A DNA stretch of 64,000 nucleotides from an uncultured Clostridia bacterium (lineage in GTDB: Bacteria > Bacillota > Clostridia > Christensenellales > CAG-917). The stretch is from NCBI GenBank assembly GCA_949286725.1, contig CASECZ010000003.1:1-64000 (forward strand), read 5' to 3'. Position numbers and translations under genes: made by a program. Below, piece after piece: positions 2,526-59,814 of the stretch (its first letter is position 1; each line of letters opens with the position of its first letter). Below the pieces are notes generated by a model. The model was not told where the DNA came from and ran no database searches. It saw only the letters and a program-made list of their open reading frames with translations.

Positions 2526-3092
2526 TCAGAAGAGCACGGGTTGCAGCTGTTTGCCTTCCAGCGCAAGCTCGCAGGTGGCGCGTATCAATGTCGTGTCGGC
2601 AATCAGAGAATTGCTCTTTTTCGTGGGTGCATCCTGCGCGAATGGTACAAAATACACGTTTCGTGTGTTAAGCAAAATTCCGATGTTTTTCGCGTTTGCC
2701 CCCAGTGCGTCGTTGGAGGAAATCGACAGCACCACGGGTCTGTTGTTTCGCAACTGTGCTTTGACAGCCATAGTTACGGGTGTGTCGGTTATTCCGTGCG
2801 CGATTTTCGACAAGGTGTTGCCCGTGCAAGGGGCGACAAGCATAAGTTCCAGTCCTTTTGCCGTGCCTATCGGCTCGGCGTCCACAATGGTTTTTATGGG
2901 TTCTTTGCCCGTTTTTTGTCGGATTATGTCGCAAAAGTCTGTCGCTTTGAAAAAACGCGTGTCCAATGAGGAAACGTTGAAGCTGAAAACAGGCGTGATG
3001 TCGAAATCGTGTTCGGTCAGGTCGTCGATTGCCGCAATCAAGTTTTTAAACGTGCAGAAAGAGCCCGTTACCGCAAGTCCAATTTTTCTCAT
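2526..3092 (-). CDS. dpaB: dipicolinate synthase subunit B
   Basis: This 188-residue flavoprotein-like subunit (SpoVFB/DpaB family) works with DpaA to oxidise the DapA product (4-hydroxytetrahydrodipicolinate) to dipicolinate in the mother cell. Visible family features are the N-terminal GLAVTGSFCTF strand-loop and the phosphate-binding stretch VAPCTGNTLSKIAHGITDTPV-like near residues 107-127. Length matches the family. The start is chosen as the ATG that overlaps the dpaA stop (ATGA), which implies translational coupling; a longer upstream frame would run into dpaA. It is the last gene of the two-gene operon. Confidence 0.93.
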   Translation of the reverse strand: MRKIGLAVTGSFCTFKNLIAAIDDLTEHDFDITPVFSFNVSSLDTRFFKATDFCDIIRQKTGKEPIKTIVDAEPIGTAKGLELMLVAPCTGNTLSKIAHGITDTPVTMAVKAQLRNNRPVVLSISSNDALGANAKNIGILLNTRNVYFVPFAQDAPTKKSNSLIADTTLIRATCELALEGKQLQPVLF

Positions 3093-3802
3093 TCGGACAC
3101 CTCCAAGACGTAGTCTTTCATAACTTTTGCCGCACTTTGCGGACTGCATTTTGCGGGTAATGCGGGATATATATCCGCGTCCATACCGAGGTTTTTCAGC
3201 GCGTCCAGGTCGAGTGCGGGTTTGCTTGCAAGGTCGATATACACCGTGTGCGCCTGCATAGTGAGCGCGACTTCCTCCGAAATTATCTTTTCGGGCACGG
3301 TGTTTACGACTATGTCGTAAAAAGATAAATCGAGATTGTTTGTCGGCACGGCGTTGCGGGCAAACGCCGCCGCGGGTCTTGCGGACGCAAGCGTCGCAAC
3401 ATCGAAGTTTACGTCCAGTTTCGTGAGCAATTTCGCAAGTGCCGCGCCCGTTCTTCCGAAACCTATGACAAGCACGTGCATATCCGCAAGCGAAAGCATA
3501 CTGTGGTCTATCATAATCGCAAGTGCCCCTTCTGCGGTCAAGGCCGCATTTGCTGCCTGAAAACGTTCGTCGCGCATCATATAACAGACTTTTACGTTGT
3601 TTTCGGCGATATATCTGTCCGCAGACGCATCCGTTCTGCCGCAGACCAGAATTTCGCCGTATCCGACCTGCGTCAATTCCCTTTCGGAAAGCACGAGGTT
3701 CGGCGCGAATATATGAGTGTTGACGGCAGGTCTTTTGCCGGTCAGCAGTCTTTTCAGAAAATAAGTCCGTTCGTCGGTTTCACACACGATGTATTCTCCC
3801 AT
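3089..3802 (-). CDS. dpaA: dipicolinate synthase subunit A
   Basis: This 237-residue protein has a Rossmann NAD(P)-binding motif VIGFGRTGAALAKLL in its middle and the overall pattern of SpoVFA/DpaA, the dehydrogenase-like subunit of dipicolinate synthase. It is shorter than the ~300-residue Bacillus protein, mainly at the N-terminus. The start is placed at the ATG preceded by GGAGGG with 6-base spacing; an in-frame ATG 36 bases upstream lacks such a site. It shares 4 bases with dpaB. The upstream sigma-K-like promoter fits mother-cell expression late in sporulation. It marks the organism as a spore former, or a descendant of one. Confidence 0.92.
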   Translation of the reverse strand: MGEYIVCETDERTYFLKRLLTGKRPAVNTHIFAPNLVLSERELTQVGYGEILVCGRTDASADRYIAENNVKVCYMMRDERFQAANAALTAEGALAIMIDHSMLSLADMHVLVIGFGRTGAALAKLLTKLDVNFDVATLASARPAAAFARNAVPTNNLDLSFYDIVVNTVPEKIISEEVALTMQAHTVYIDLASKPALDLDALKNLGMDADIYPALPAKCSPQSAAKVMKDYVLEVSE

Positions 3803-3818
3803 TTTTCCCTCCACGGTG

Positions 3819-3848
3819 TATCGTATGCAAAGCCGCATTGTCGGTGTG
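3819..3848 (-). promoter_or_regulatory. predicted sigma-K (mother-cell) promoter of dpaAB
   Basis: On the minus strand a -10 element CATACGATA (3819-3827) matches the sigma-E/K consensus CATAnnnTA. A CACA (3845-3848) lies with ACA 17 bp upstream, as in sigma-K promoters. The Bacillus spoVF operon is sigma-K dependent. No sigma-A promoter is visible in this gap. Confidence 0.6.
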
Positions 3849-25764: not shown

Positions 25765-26961
25765 TCAGTTTATGCCGTAATACTTTTTGAGAGCGGCTTC
25801 CGCTGCGGGCAGCGACTTTTCGTCTATGCAGCAGGAAATCTTTGTCTCCGACGTGGTGATGGCGTAAATCTTCGCGCCGAGGTCGCGGAGCATGGACAGC
25901 ACTTCGAGCGCGACGCCGCTCTTGTGCTCCATTCCTGCGCCTTCCGCGGTGATTTTGCCCGCGCCCAGCACGATGTTCTGCGCGAGGTGTGCGGGGATGA
26001 ATTCCTTGATGCGGACAAAGTCCTTCTGCCCCGCGGTGAAAGACACCGCCGCGGTGCCGTCCGCATTGTAGTTCTGACTTATCATGTCGAGGTTGACGTC
26101 CTGCTTCTTGATTTCGGCAAGCAATGCAAGGAAGTCCGCAAACGGTATGGAGGGCAGAGTGAGCAGGGCAACGTCCTTTTCGGCGGAAACGGTCGTGACC
26201 GCGTAAAAGTTGCCGATTATGGACGTCATATCGTAAAAGCCCGTCGCCTTGTCCATGAGGAAGGACGCCGCGCGTAGTGCGCCGCGCGCAAATACCTCTT
26301 TGCTCTCGGCTTCGTGCGAGAGTTTGATGACTTCGCCCGCGCCGAGGAACATAACGTCGTGTTTGCCGACGACCGTACCGCCGCGGATTGCGTGTATGCC
26401 GATTTCGTTCTTTTCTCGTCTGCAATCTGTGCCGTGACGGCCGTATTTGGGCACGAGGGAGTTGTCGCGCACGCTGTTGATTGCCTCGGCAAGCGTGAGC
26501 GCCGTGCCGCTGGGTGCGTCGATTTTGTGGTTGTGGTGTGTTTCGACGATTTCCACGTCGTAGGCTTCGCCGAGGAATTTCGCCGCTTCTTTGGACAGAC
26601 TGGCAAGCAGATTGACGCCCAGCGACATATTGCTGGCTTTGAACACGGCAATCTGTTGCGCCGCCATGCGGATGCGGTTCATCTGTTCTTCGGTGTATCC
26701 CGTGGTTGCGAGCACGACGCGGCACTTGCGACCGAGCGCATAGGCGAGAATGTCGTTGAGCGCGGACGGGGAAGAGAAGTCCACAATCACGTCGGCGTCG
26801 AGAGTGACGTCGGCAAAACTCTTGTAAACGGGATAGGGCAGATCGGACGCACCGAAGGCGTCGACGCCGAACACGATTTCGTATTCGGAGGAGCCGATGA
26901 GCGTCTTATAAATGGTTCTGCCTATACGTCCGGCGGCACCGGAAACGGCGATTTTTATCAT
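25765..26961 (-). CDS. dapB: 4-hydroxytetrahydrodipicolinate reductase fused to aspartokinase-like tandem ACT domains
   Basis: Residues 1-247 are a complete DapB, the NAD(P)H-dependent reductase of lysine/diaminopimelate synthesis. It has the Rossmann motif GAAGRIG (8-14), VDFSSPSA, the catalytic region with His142 and Lys146 (ETHHNHKIDAPSGTA), and RGGTVVGKHDV. DapB normally ends here at ~250 residues. This protein continues to 398 with two ACT-type repeats: one about 258-320, and one about 328-395 with GAGMEHKSGVALEVLS and TSETKISCCID. These closely resemble the regulatory end of aspartokinase. This suggests allosteric feedback by lysine or another amino acid on DapB (inference). Last gene of asd-dapA-dapB; 3 bases follow dapA's stop. 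Confidence 0.93.
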   Translation of the reverse strand: MIKIAVSGAAGRIGRTIYKTLIGSSEYEIVFGVDAFGASDLPYPVYKSFADVTLDADVIVDFSSPSALNDILAYALGRKCRVVLATTGYTEEQMNRIRMAAQQIAVFKASNMSLGVNLLASLSKEAAKFLGEAYDVEIVETHHNHKIDAPSGTALTLAEAINSVRDNSLVPKYGRHGTDCRREKNEIGIHAIRGGTVVGKHDVMFLGAGEVIKLSHEAESKEVFARGALRAASFLMDKATGFYDMTSIIGNFYAVTTVSAEKDVALLTLPSIPFADFLALLAEIKKQDVNLDMISQNYNADGTAAVSFTAGQKDFVRIKEFIPAHLAQNIVLGAGKITAEGAGMEHKSGVALEVLSMLRDLGAKIYAITTSETKISCCIDEKSLPAAEAALKKYYGIN

Positions 26962-26964
26962 AGG

Positions 26965-27834
26965 TCAGTTGAATTCGGGCAACAAACGTGCCAGTTTTTC
27001 AGTGTTTTCCGCCGACATTTCGGTGAGGGGCAGACGGAGAATTCCGTTGCAAAGTCCTTTGAGTTCGGCGGCTTTCTTGACGGGAATGGGGTTGACCTCG
27101 GAGAAAAGCGCTTTGACGAAAGGCAGCATTTTCAGTTGCATTTCGGCGGCTTTTGCGAGGTCGCCCGCGAGCATGGCGGAAGTCATTTCGGATGTGAATT
27201 TCGGTGCCACGTTGCTTACCACGCTGATGACACCTATGCCGCCCATCGCCATGACGGGAACGGTGATGCCGTCGTCGCCGCTGTACACGTCGGCTTTGCC
27301 GCGGGAAAGACGGATTGCCTCTTCGATTTGTTCCATATTACCGCTGGCTTCCTTGATTGCTGCGATATTCTTGTGCTCGGCGATTTCCGCGAAGGTGGCG
27401 GGCAGAAGATTGACGCCCGTACGACCCGGCACGTTGTAGCAGATGATGGGCAGGTTGACCGCGTCCGCGATTGCGGTGTAGTGCGCGACAAGCCCTTTCT
27501 GCGTGGCTTTGTTGTAGTAGGGGGTGACGACGAGCAGAGCGTCCGCGCCCATTTTTTCGGCGAGGACGGACATCTCGATTGCGGCTTTCGTGGAATTGGC
27601 ACCCGTACCGACTATGATAGGGAGTTTGCCTTTCAGCTTTTTGACGGTGAATTCGATTACGGACTTTTTCTCTTCGAGGCTCATCGTGGCAGGCTCGCCC
27701 GTGGTGCCGAGAATGACGAGGGCGTCGACGCCGCCCGCGACTTGTTGATCGAGGAGTTTGTTCAGACTTTCAAAATCCACACCCGACTCCGTAAACGGAG
27801 TTATGAGTGCCGTGGCAGTTCCCTTGAATATCAT
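26965..27834 (-). CDS. dapA: 4-hydroxytetrahydrodipicolinate synthase
   Basis: This 289-residue TIM-barrel aldolase condenses pyruvate with aspartate semialdehyde. The family pattern is clear: FKGTATALITPF at the start, GTTGEPATMSLEEK, YYNKATQKGL, and the Schiff-base lysine in AAIKEASGNMEQI. Length is normal. The start is the ATG preceded by GGAGG, one base after the asd stop, so translation is coupled. Its product feeds both DapB (lysine, peptidoglycan) and DpaAB (dipicolinate for spores). Confidence 0.96.
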   Translation of the reverse strand: MIFKGTATALITPFTESGVDFESLNKLLDQQVAGGVDALVILGTTGEPATMSLEEKKSVIEFTVKKLKGKLPIIVGTGANSTKAAIEMSVLAEKMGADALLVVTPYYNKATQKGLVAHYTAIADAVNLPIICYNVPGRTGVNLLPATFAEIAEHKNIAAIKEASGNMEQIEEAIRLSRGKADVYSGDDGITVPVMAMGGIGVISVVSNVAPKFTSEMTSAMLAGDLAKAAEMQLKMLPFVKALFSEVNPIPVKKAAELKGLCNGILRLPLTEMSAENTEKLARLLPEFN

Positions 27835-27835
27835 A

Positions 27836-28846
27836 TTATGCCTCCAAAGCGTTCTTGATGAGAAGTTGGACAATCTGTACCGCGTTGGTTGCCGCGCCTT
27901 TTCTGATGTTGTCGGCGACGCACCAGATGTTCACGCCGCTGTCCACACTCTCGTCGATGCGGATACGTCCCACGAAGACTTCGTCGTGGTTTTCTGCGAG
28001 TATGGGCATCGGATAGATGTTGTTCTTGACGTCGTCCATAACGACGAGTCCGGGGAATTTTTCCAGACAGGCGAACACCGCTTCTTTGGTGCAGGGTTTC
28101 TTGAACTCAACGTTAATGGATTCGCTGTGACCGTGGAATACGGGCACGCGTACCGTCGTCGCGGTGATGCGCAGGGACTGGTCGTGCAGAATTTTTTTGG
28201 TTTCCTCAATCATCTTCCATTCCTCTTTGGTGTAACCGTTGTCGAGGAAGACGTCGATGTGGGGGAGCATATTGTAGGCGATGGGGTAGGGGAATTTTTT
28301 GGGAGCTTCGCCCTCGATGCCGTATTTGAGGTCGTTGTAGCCCGCTACGCCCGCGCCGCTGACCGCCTGATAGGTGGAATATACGATACGTTTGATGCCG
28401 AAAGTGTCGTAAAGGGGTTTGAGCGCGACGACTGCCTGAATGGTCGAGCAGTTGGGGTTGGCGATGATGCCTTTGTTCCATTTGACGTCCTCGGGGTTGA
28501 CTTCGGGAACGACGAGGGGAACGTCTTTGTCCATACGCCACTGGCTGCTGTTGTCGACGACGACCGCGCCCGCTCTTACGAATACGGGAGCATAATCTCT
28601 CGACGTGCCTGCGCCCGCGGAGAACAGAGCAAAGTCCACTTTGCCGGCGAGAGCCATTACGTTTTCCTCGGTGAGTTCGATAACGGTGTGGGGTTTGCCC
28701 ATGAAATCGATTTGTTTACCCGCGCTGCGCGCAGAAGCGAAAAGATAGTAATTCTCGACGGGAAGCTGTCTTTCCGTGAGCACTTCGAGGAATTTGTTTC
28801 CGACCATACCGGTCGCGCCGACTACGGCGATGTTGAATTTCTTCAT
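27836..28846 (-). CDS. asd: aspartate-semialdehyde dehydrogenase
   Basis: This 336-residue enzyme reduces aspartyl phosphate to aspartate semialdehyde, the branch point to lysine, dipicolinate, threonine and methionine. It shows the N-terminal nucleotide motif VGATGMVGNKFLEVL, the catalytic cysteine in NPNCSTIQ, and the segment TYQAVSGAGVAGYNDL. First gene of the asd-dapA-dapB operon, with AGGAGG and a consensus promoter upstream. No lysine riboswitch is seen in its short leader, so control may lie at the protein level (see dapB). Confidence 0.96.
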   Translation of the reverse strand: MKKFNIAVVGATGMVGNKFLEVLTERQLPVENYYLFASARSAGKQIDFMGKPHTVIELTEENVMALAGKVDFALFSAGAGTSRDYAPVFVRAGAVVVDNSSQWRMDKDVPLVVPEVNPEDVKWNKGIIANPNCSTIQAVVALKPLYDTFGIKRIVYSTYQAVSGAGVAGYNDLKYGIEGEAPKKFPYPIAYNMLPHIDVFLDNGYTKEEWKMIEETKKILHDQSLRITATTVRVPVFHGHSESINVEFKKPCTKEAVFACLEKFPGLVVMDDVKNNIYPMPILAENHDEVFVGRIRIDESVDSGVNIWCVADNIRKGAATNAVQIVQLLIKNALEA

Positions 28847-37535: not shown

Positions 37536-38813
37536 ATGAAAAAAATCGGAGTTGCCCTTCTGGGCTTGGGCGTTGTCGGAGGCGGAACGTACAACATTCT
37601 GACTTCCAAACGCGAGTATATCAAACAAAACGACGGTATCGACATCGAAATCAAATGCGTGCTGGAACGCAACCTCGAAAGGTGTAAGGAACTGGGCGTC
37701 GACCCCGCAATAGTATCCACGGATATCGAGCGCGTGGTGTCCGACCCCGAAATCGACATAGTTGCGGAATTCTTCGGCGGTATCGAACCCGCAAAGACTT
37801 TCCTCATCAAAGCTCTGGAAGCGGGCAAGAGCATCGTCACCGCAAACAAGGAGATGTTCTCCAAGAGCTGGCCCGAACTGGAAGCCGCGGCGGCAAAAGG
37901 CGGCGGCGGGCTTTATTTCGAGGCAAGTTGCGCGGGCGGCATTCCCATCATACGCACGCTGACCGACGGTATGCAGGGCAACTGTGTTACCTCTTTAAAA
38001 GGCATTGTCAACGGCACGACCAACTACATTCTTTCGCGTATGAGCGAAGAGGGCGTGGACTACGCGACCTGTCTGCGCGACGCGCAGGCACTCGGTTACG
38101 CCGAGGCAAACCCCTCCGCCGACGTGGACGGTTTTGACGCAATGTACAAAAACAGCATTCTTTCCTCGCTGGCGTACAAGAAGAGAGTGCCCGTGGACAA
38201 GATTTACCGCGAAGGGATTTCGGGTATCGCCGTCGAGGATATCAAATACGGCAAGGAACTGGGTTACACTCTCAAACTGCTCGCGGTGTCCAAGAACCGC
38301 GACGGCAAAATCGAAGCGCGCGTACACCCGGCGTTCTTGCCTGCAAATCATCCGCTCTCGTCAATCAACGGTTCGTTCAATGCGGTGTTCGTGCACGGCG
38401 ACAACGTGGACGACATTATGTTGTACGGCAGAGGCGCGGGCGCGTTTCCGACAGGCAGTGCGATAGTCAGCGACATAGTGTTTGCGGCGGGCAAGGACGT
38501 TCACCGTCGTTTCCCGTGGGAGCTTGATAAAAAAATCGACGACAAGGATTTTGCCGACGATTTCTCGTCGAGATATTATATCCGTCTTACCGTATCGGAC
38601 GAAGAGGGCACGCTGAGCAAGATAACGGGCGTATTCGGCAGAAACGGCATTTCGCTGGCGTCCGTCGTGCAGAAAGAGGCGGCATCCAAGGAAGTCGCGG
38701 TCATATTCGTGACGCACGAAACGAAAGAGAGCGTTATGAAAAAATCGCTCGCAGAGATAGAACAACTTTCCGGCGTGGATAACATTGCCGCGCTGATAAG
38801 GGTGGAGGAATGA
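37536..38813 (+). CDS. hom: homoserine dehydrogenase with C-terminal ACT domain
   Basis: This 425-residue enzyme reduces aspartate semialdehyde to homoserine, leading to threonine and methionine. It shows the N-terminal nucleotide fold GLGVVGGGTYNIL, the substrate region GNCVTSLKGIVNGTTNYILSRM, and ANPSADVDGFDA. A C-terminal ACT domain (about 345-425, starting YYIRLTVSDEEGTLSKI) should give feedback by threonine. AGGAG precedes the ATG. Its last 4 bases overlap malQ. Confidence 0.96.
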   Translation: MKKIGVALLGLGVVGGGTYNILTSKREYIKQNDGIDIEIKCVLERNLERCKELGVDPAIVSTDIERVVSDPEIDIVAEFFGGIEPAKTFLIKALEAGKSIVTANKEMFSKSWPELEAAAAKGGGGLYFEASCAGGIPIIRTLTDGMQGNCVTSLKGIVNGTTNYILSRMSEEGVDYATCLRDAQALGYAEANPSADVDGFDAMYKNSILSSLAYKKRVPVDKIYREGISGIAVEDIKYGKELGYTLKLLAVSKNRDGKIEARVHPAFLPANHPLSSINGSFNAVFVHGDNVDDIMLYGRGAGAFPTGSAIVSDIVFAAGKDVHRRFPWELDKKIDDKDFADDFSSRYYIRLTVSDEEGTLSKITGVFGRNGISLASVVQKEAASKEVAVIFVTHETKESVMKKSLAEIEQLSGVDNIAALIRVEE

Positions 38814-58503: not shown

Positions 58504-59814
58504 ATGAAAGTTTGTAAATTCGGTGGCACCTCTATGGCCAACAGTACGACCATTTCGCAGGTTGCCGAAATCGTGAAGTCCGACAAGAAGAGAAAGTTCG
58601 TCGTTGTATCCGCACCGGGCAAGCGCAACTCCGCCGACGTCAAGGTCACGGACGCGCTTTACGCCTGCTATCGCGAGCAGACCGAGAAAGGCAACTGCGA
58701 CGAAACGTTTGCCGTCATAGAAAAACGCTTTCTCGACATAGAGCAGGAGCTCGGTATCAACGTCGGTATGGCGGCGGAACTCGCCGCAATCAAAGCCCGC
58801 ATAGAGGAAGGGGAGAGTTCGGATTACACCGCTTCCCGCGGCGAATATCTGAGTGCCAAAATTCTCGCGGCAAAACTCGGCGTGGCTTTCGTAGATACGG
58901 CGGAACTCATCAAGTTCAACGACAAAGGCGAACTCCTGCTCGACTTCTCGCTCGACTTGCTCCGTGCGGCGCTTGCCGACCTCGATTACGCCGTGTTGCC
59001 CGGTTTCTACGGCTCCACCAACGACGGCAAAATCAAGACCTTCTCCCGTGGCGGCTCCGACATCACGGGTGCCATCGTCGCGCGTGCGGTGGACGCGGAA
59101 GTGTACGAGAACTGGACGGACGTCGACGGTTTCCTTACCGCAGACCCCAGAATTGTCGACAGCCCCGCGATAATCGACTTTTTGAGTTACAAGGAACTGC
59201 GCGAACTCGCGTACATGGGCGCGGAGGTTCTGCACCCCGAATCCATATTCCCCGTGCGCAGCGCGGGTATTCCCATCAACATCAAAAATACTTTCAACCC
59301 TTCCGCAAAGGGTACGATGATTGTCGCCGACAGCAAACTGCCGCGCACCAAAACCAAAGTCATAACGGGCATTGCGGGCAAGAAAGGCTTTACGATTATC
59401 AACATCGAAAAGGATATGATGAACAGCGAAATCGGTTTCGGCAGAAAGGTTTTGTCCGTACTCGAATACGAGGGGATTTCTTTCGAGCATATGCCGTCCG
59501 GCATCGATACGCTGTCGCTCGTAATCCGTGACGAATATCTCGCGGGCAAGATGCAGAAACTCGTCGCCAAACTGCGCGACGCGCTCGGTGCCGACAACGT
59601 GGAAATTCACAGCGGACTTTCGCTCATCGCGACCGTCGGTCACAATATGGCGTCCCGTCACGGCACCGCGGCAACCATATTCGACGCCCTCGCCGACAAC
59701 CACATCAACATCAGAATGATAGACCAGGGCTCCTCCGAGCTCAACATAATCGTCGGTGTCGACACCTTTGATTACGAAAAGGCCATAAGTGCGATTTATC
59801 ACGCTTTCTGTTGA
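58504..59814 (+). CDS. lysC: aspartate kinase
   Basis: This 436-residue enzyme phosphorylates aspartate, the entry to lysine, threonine, methionine and dipicolinate synthesis. The catalytic part has KFGGTSMAN at the start, GFYGSTNDGKIKTFSRGGSDITG and NWTDVDG. Tandem ACT domains follow from about 285 (KTKVITGIAGKKGFTIINIEK, then SLIATVGHNMASRHGTAATIF) and give feedback control. It is of the shorter aspartokinase III-like type. AGAGGATAG lies upstream. It is distant from asd-dapA-dapB in the window. The stop overlaps an inverted repeat. Confidence 0.94.
   Translation: MKVCKFGGTSMANSTTISQVAEIVKSDKKRKFVVVSAPGKRNSADVKVTDALYACYREQTEKGNCDETFAVIEKRFLDIEQELGINVGMAAELAAIKARIEEGESSDYTASRGEYLSAKILAAKLGVAFVDTAELIKFNDKGELLLDFSLDLLRAALADLDYAVLPGFYGSTNDGKIKTFSRGGSDITGAIVARAVDAEVYENWTDVDGFLTADPRIVDSPAIIDFLSYKELRELAYMGAEVLHPESIFPVRSAGIPINIKNTFNPSAKGTMIVADSKLPRTKTKVITGIAGKKGFTIINIEKDMMNSEIGFGRKVLSVLEYEGISFEHMPSGIDTLSLVIRDEYLAGKMQKLVAKLRDALGADNVEIHSGLSLIATVGHNMASRHGTAATIFDALADNHINIRMIDQGSSELNIIVGVDTFDYEKAISAIYHAFC

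Follow-up and report, generated by a model that had tools for sequence, protein, structure and literature searches.

Tandem ACT modules of aspartokinase type fused to DapB, or encoded directly behind it, in Clostridia: a candidate control point in lysine synthesis

The window analysed here is a stretch of 64,000 nucleotides from an uncultured Clostridia bacterium of the order Christensenellales. It contains an open reading frame that starts with ATG, has no internal stop and stands third in a tightly packed asd-dapA-dapB group, in which 3 bases separate the stop of dapA from the start of the frame studied. The features of the window used in this work are:

25765..26961, minus strand: dapB-ACT gene, encoding DapB plus an aspartokinase-type tandem ACT module, 398 aa (open reading frame, profile matches, AF2 model)
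26626..26961, minus strand: DapB N-terminal nucleotide-binding domain, residues 1-112 (PF01113, E 8.7e-25)
26218..26619, minus strand: DapB C-terminal substrate/tetramerisation domain, residues 115-248 (PF05173, E 3.2e-46)
25972..26196, minus strand: first ACT domain, about residues 256-330, with the NLDMISQ motif (aspartokinase regulatory-domain alignment and secondary structure of the model)
25783..25953, minus strand: second ACT domain, residues 337-393, with the GAGM..SGVA and TTSETKIS motifs (PF22468 ACT_9 over cut-off, E 7.4e-15)
26965..27834, minus strand: dapA, directly upstream of dapB-ACT (TIGR00674 over cut-off)
27836..28846, minus strand: asd, first gene of the asd-dapA-dapB-ACT group (NF011456 and TIGR01296 over cut-off)
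37536-38810: homoserine dehydrogenase with a C-terminal ACT domain (PF01842)
58504..59814, plus strand: aspartokinase, PRK09034 type (profile match, ACT tree)
2529..3149, minus strand: dpaB, dipicolinate synthase subunit B (NF006161 and TIGR02852 over cut-off)
3092..3838, minus strand: dpaA-like gene, divergent (NF006162, E 5.8e-35, 121 bits against a cut-off of 261)

The dpaAB pair reported in the first-pass annotation is thus present in the window, dpaB being over its cut-off and the dpaA-like gene divergent and below. The latter, at 3092-3838, lies far under the DpaA cut-offs and is apparently N-terminally shortened; the adjoining dpaB is normal.

DapB, a tetrameric NAD(P)H-dependent HTPA reductase, catalyses the second committed step in making lysine. 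This step is usually treated as unregulated, feedback in the diaminopimelate pathway being usually described for aspartokinase and DapA. The window protein begins with a complete DapB (residues 1-250) that scores 231 bits with TIGR00036 (cut-off 122; residues 1-249). Its catalytic stretch ETHHNHKIDAPSGTA is intact, and the motif residues HH, K, D.PSGTA and GxxG are invariant among 40 aligned homologues. The tail of about 145 residues (254-397) aligns with the C-terminal part of aspartate kinase models (NF005155, E 2.6e-18, positions 252-403 of 407) and, searched alone, matches the Synechocystis aspartokinase 3l76 (E 9e-17). Aspartokinase models match the product by their last ~150 positions only, and the amino-acid kinase domain PF00696 gave no match to it in the Pfam/NCBIfam profile search. 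The AF2 model, built from 40 fused homologues, has a mean pLDDT of 90.3, a pTM of 0.70 and no residue below 50; it is a monomer, which does not fix the packing of the DapB half against the ACT half. When this model was compared with the PDB by Foldseek, DapB structures ranked first (5tem, TMt 0.85), followed by aspartokinases, including the C. glutamicum complex with Lys and Thr (3aaw). The frame is a complete DapB followed by an aspartokinase-type tandem ACT module; Pfam, NCBIfam and the 3l76 and 3aaw matches all agree with the first-pass description of it as a DapB carrying an aspartokinase-like feedback domain.

The window protein shares with DapB (TIGR00036) the complete domain, the catalytic HH..K.DAPSGTA motif and the fold. 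However, known DapBs are about 240-275 aa long and have no regulatory domain, and none of the solved DapB structures matched reaches into the tail. With the regulatory domain of the alpha2beta2 aspartokinases (C. glutamicum LysC), the tail has in common the tandem ACT pair, the GAGM and TSE motifs and an alignment over its full length, and both systems include a free-standing ACT version, as a separate beta subunit in the kinase and as the split gene described below for DapB. In contrast to LysC, the module is located on or beside DapB, the kinase domain is absent and the lysine pocket is kept only in part. Homoserine dehydrogenase is also a dehydrogenase of the aspartate pathway whose feedback domain is a C-terminal ACT, but its single ACT is of another type (PF01842) and it belongs to another branch. 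The E. coli-type lysine-inhibited DapA would share with DapB-ACT, as we propose it, lysine feedback where the lysine branch begins; the DapA site is nevertheless an interface within the DapA tetramer and involves no ACT. Among the hits listed for DapB combined with ACT or allostery in 5.39 million open-access papers, and in the family models used, there was neither a DapB-ACT fusion nor a DapB regulatory subunit. Fused and split DapBs extend the known class of ACT-regulated biosynthetic enzymes with regulated-looking members.

A full-length fused DapB-ACT (~400 aa) is encoded by 52 of the 297 sampled genomes of the order, belonging to 17 of its 33 families, and most of the remaining genomes encode a plain DapB of ~255 aa. 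Thirty fused proteins of the order were inspected and aligned. Fused genes were also detected in at least seven class families beyond the order (391 class genomes; loci L143-L149 and L151). The homologues are 36-71% identical to the window protein and, since full-length fused ones come from many independent genomes, chance and an assembly chimera are excluded. The sequencing or assembly join against which the first-pass annotation had cautioned is discarded in the same way: fused frames are present in dozens of genomes assembled independently, some of which (G031, G054, G126, G337 and G332) consist of a single contig, and the probability of a chimeric or misannotated gene is negligible. One fused gene was found in a Spirochaete MAG contig (L035:4950-6212), to be explained by horizontal transfer or else by misbinning of the contig. 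The N-terminal DapB extensions of f14 and of some f5, f11 and f32 genomes were not retained as fusions; they look like an open frame running into the upstream gene, which is in another frame.

In other Clostridia, the module is encoded separately. Indeed, a distinct ACT-ACT frame directly follows an ordinary dapB in 20 loci, on nine contigs (L040, L042, L044, L047, L067, L068, L073, L079 and L081) and on eleven others (L133-L142 and L150) that come from nine class families; the pairing of dapB with an ACT-ACT gene also occurs in a family outside the class (L191, L192). These proteins, mostly 153-168 aa long (e.g. genes L040:5767-6219 and L139:3378-3860, minus strand), are homologous to the fused tail, and where inspected their genes have their own ATG and a ribosome-binding-site-like stretch. 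The split pairs have asd and/or dapA upstream. NCBIfam models recognise the separate proteins only as aspartate kinase C-termini; we consider them probable DapB regulatory subunits. Since some lineages carry the module on DapB itself and others in the gene immediately after dapB, we infer that DapB is most likely its target.

A tree of 85 ACT modules places the separate ACTs in a single clade (100/98) and the fused tails, except for the degenerate ones of f31/g88, in what is essentially one group; most true aspartokinases fall outside both. The f31/g88 tails lie on a long branch away from the other fused tails; we took them for degenerate forms and not for a second origin of the fusion. In five of their loci (L123-L127) and in three f17 genomes (L114, L117 and L122), DapB has a C-terminal extension about as long as the ACT module, but the motifs of the second ACT are gone or ACT similarity is undetectable; these extensions are probably decaying regulatory tails. 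In the DapB tree, built by a quick method with SH-aLRT as its only support, plain DapBs are nested among the fused and among the split ones (for example G101 inside genus g18, and G021 beside G089). Repeated loss is the simplest reading of this nesting, and the ACT module has probably been lost several times. Within genus g18, locus L169 of G101 encodes a plain DapB and the other sampled members are fused; the whole tail was apparently lost recently in G101, which would make this genome a natural feedback-free control.

The retained modules are under constraint. Estimates of dN/dS by the Nei-Gojobori method, for which synonymous sites are partly saturated, are 0.05-0.25 for the fused tail against 0.05-0.17 for the DapB part in pairs of related genomes, and 0.02-0.05 for the separate ACT genes. 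Such values indicate that the tail is under purifying selection and hence that it is a working part of the protein.

The window's genome has a single detected aspartokinase, the one at 58504..59814. It is of the PRK09034 type, a class other than the one that the DapB tail resembles, and in the ACT tree it is placed among the distant PRK09034-type sequences. The tail as a copy of the ACT pair of this kinase is consequently ruled out, the kinase being of another class and branching far away. Kinases of the TIGR00656 type are over cut-off in only 1 of the 297 genomes of the order. In family f17, a TIGR00656-type aspartokinase lies directly beside dpaB in four loci, L155 (G017:C16), L156 (G067:C30), L157 (G120:C210) and L154 (G086:C135), as if a dedicated kinase served dipicolinate synthesis, this kinase class being almost absent elsewhere in the order. 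The aspartokinase origin of the module, as judged from its sequence, could suggest that the separate protein, and by extension the fused tail, acts in trans on the resident aspartokinase as an extra beta subunit instead of on DapB. This is very improbable, given that the module is encoded beside or inside dapB and not with lysC, that the resident kinase is of the other class and far from the tail in the tree, and that a partner of the TIGR00656 type is so rare in the order.

Pocket positions were numbered on C. glutamicum aspartokinase by alignment, using the residue list of a published review (PMC10464499). In that enzyme, Q298, I272, N372, I375, E382, T361, S381 and A279 are among the positions that have been mutated and tested for lysine inhibition, and mutation of Q298, S381 or T361 is reported to relieve it (PMC10464499). 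In the fused tails, D294, M354, G359, T380 and S381 hardly vary, and most tails retain Q298 and E382. D274 is not retained or falls in a gap, Phe or Ile takes the place of A279, N372 is often Gly and T361 is Ala. The tail as a conserved regulatory module is supported by these sequence comparisons, an amino-acid effector being the natural reading. The module looks built for amino-acid binding, with a pocket that is no copy of the lysine pocket, and threonine or another ligand is possible because part of that pocket is not kept. On the other hand, the module was located in the lysine branch in the loci inspected. A lysine riboswitch stands directly before fused operons (L034, L144 and G078) and split operons (L040, L047, L067, L073, L079 and L139), which ties these operons to lysine. 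Branch and riboswitches together favour lysine as the effector.

We therefore favour the view that DapB-ACT is an allosteric enzyme inhibited, most likely, by lysine, a reading to which we give a probability of roughly 0.55. The window gene would produce an active DapB with a C-terminal tandem ACT of the alpha2beta2 aspartokinase type; at the interfaces between ACT domains, this module would bind one of the end products of the aspartate family, lysine being the likeliest, and plentiful lysine would lower DapB activity. In related Clostridia, the separate ACT protein encoded behind dapB would be the regulatory subunit in trans. Ligand binding, lysine as the ligand, inhibition and contact between DapB and the separate ACT protein are the parts that we infer. 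They build on an architecture, a conservation, an operon position, a purifying selection, a split version and a nesting of plain forms among fused and split ones that are observed. Lysine feedback on DapB is the most likely mechanism, with moderate confidence. Counting against this view, the module is absent from many close relatives, whose DapB is plain, and degenerate tails occur (f31/g88 and the three f17 genomes).

Two other explanations of the tail have to be weighed. The ACT pair may be a genuine effector site of DapB that responds to something other than lysine (threonine, for balance across pathways as in aspartokinases that sense it; lysine and threonine in concert, as in C. glutamicum; or meso-diaminopimelate), with activation as a possible effect. 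The resemblance of the tail to a class in which threonine and lysine act together and the loss of several residues of the C. glutamicum lysine pocket point in this direction. However, the operon is in the lysine branch only and lies behind a lysine riboswitch in many relatives, and threonine has no obvious reason to act past the branch point, which leaves this explanation possible but clearly second to lysine. Alternatively, the tail would have ceased to bind any effector and would only help DapB to assemble or remain stable, as the degenerate tails of f31/g88 and some f17 genomes and the many relatives whose DapB works without a tail could suggest. This is unlikely, because the loop and TSE motifs are among the best-conserved columns in the window protein and in most homologues, because purifying selection is strong, and because a module encoded by a separate gene would be needless for mere stabilisation. 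Returning to lysine feedback, a wider generalisation can be offered tentatively, as one that we hold to be less probable than the proposal for the window gene: across Clostridia, DapB may be a lysine-controlled enzyme whose dedicated ACT-ACT regulator is either fused or separate (heteromeric, like the alpha/beta aspartokinases) and, in spore formers, also apportions flow between lysine and dipicolinate.

The DapA of the window has Lys56 and Ala84 at the lysine-site positions of the E. coli K-12 enzyme, whose dapA numbering is used here. Lys or Arg at position 56 marks lysine-insensitive DapAs and His or Glu lysine-sensitive ones (PMC5109050). The window DapA thus lacks the sensitivity marker, and feedback at this enzyme is not expected since K56 marks insensitivity. 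In a first comparison of DapAs, His56 was present in none of the 56 fused, 50 of the 73 plain and all 22 split operons. Within the order, His56 is missing from all 104 DapAs inspected, regardless of the state of DapB (fused, degenerate or plain); Glu56 is present in seven from fused operons, and the His56/Glu84 lysine site is missing in plain and fused genomes alike. The idea that the fusion replaced a lost control of DapA was abandoned, because the order's own plain operons (49 in total) are equally devoid of His56. The His56 contrast is therefore taxonomic and provides no evidence for a shift of control from DapA to DapB. For the window's own genome, K56 leaves room for a control point at DapB.

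No lysine riboswitch (RF00168) was found in the window, including upstream of asd, or elsewhere in the window's genome. The first-pass annotation had noted this absence, which stands, and had seen in it a sign of protein-level control, an argument that does not hold in general because 27 of the 52 fused genomes have a lysine riboswitch. Compared with 108 of 161 unfused genomes of the order, the difference is not marked (p = 0.07, uncorrected). Fusion and riboswitch as alternatives to each other were accordingly rejected; we claim no trade-off from these proportions, and both coexist at the three fused operons named above. A DpaB over cut-off is present in 29 of the 52 fused and 32 of the 161 unfused genomes (p ~2e-6, kinship ignored), a test that misses Clostridia making dipicolinate by other enzymes, and this bias is suggestive of a tie between the fusion and dipicolinate synthesis. 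Diversion of flow to dipicolinate, put forward at the first pass, is not the general function of the fusion, as 23 of the 52 fused genomes have no over-cut-off DpaB; the module thus has a use outside dipicolinate synthesis.

As their DapB has an ACT sensor, fused or in a neighbouring gene, these bacteria probably control lysine synthesis at the DapB step. Such a sensor would add a third control point to the diaminopimelate pathway in a large part of the Clostridia and would suggest how bacteria with a K56-type DapA restrain the lysine branch. Small ACT proteins that were modelled only as aspartokinase fragments thereby gain a likely function. Finally, the fused, split and plain DapBs would offer a natural feedback switch, together with switch-less variants, for the engineering of lysine, diaminopimelate and dipicolinate production.
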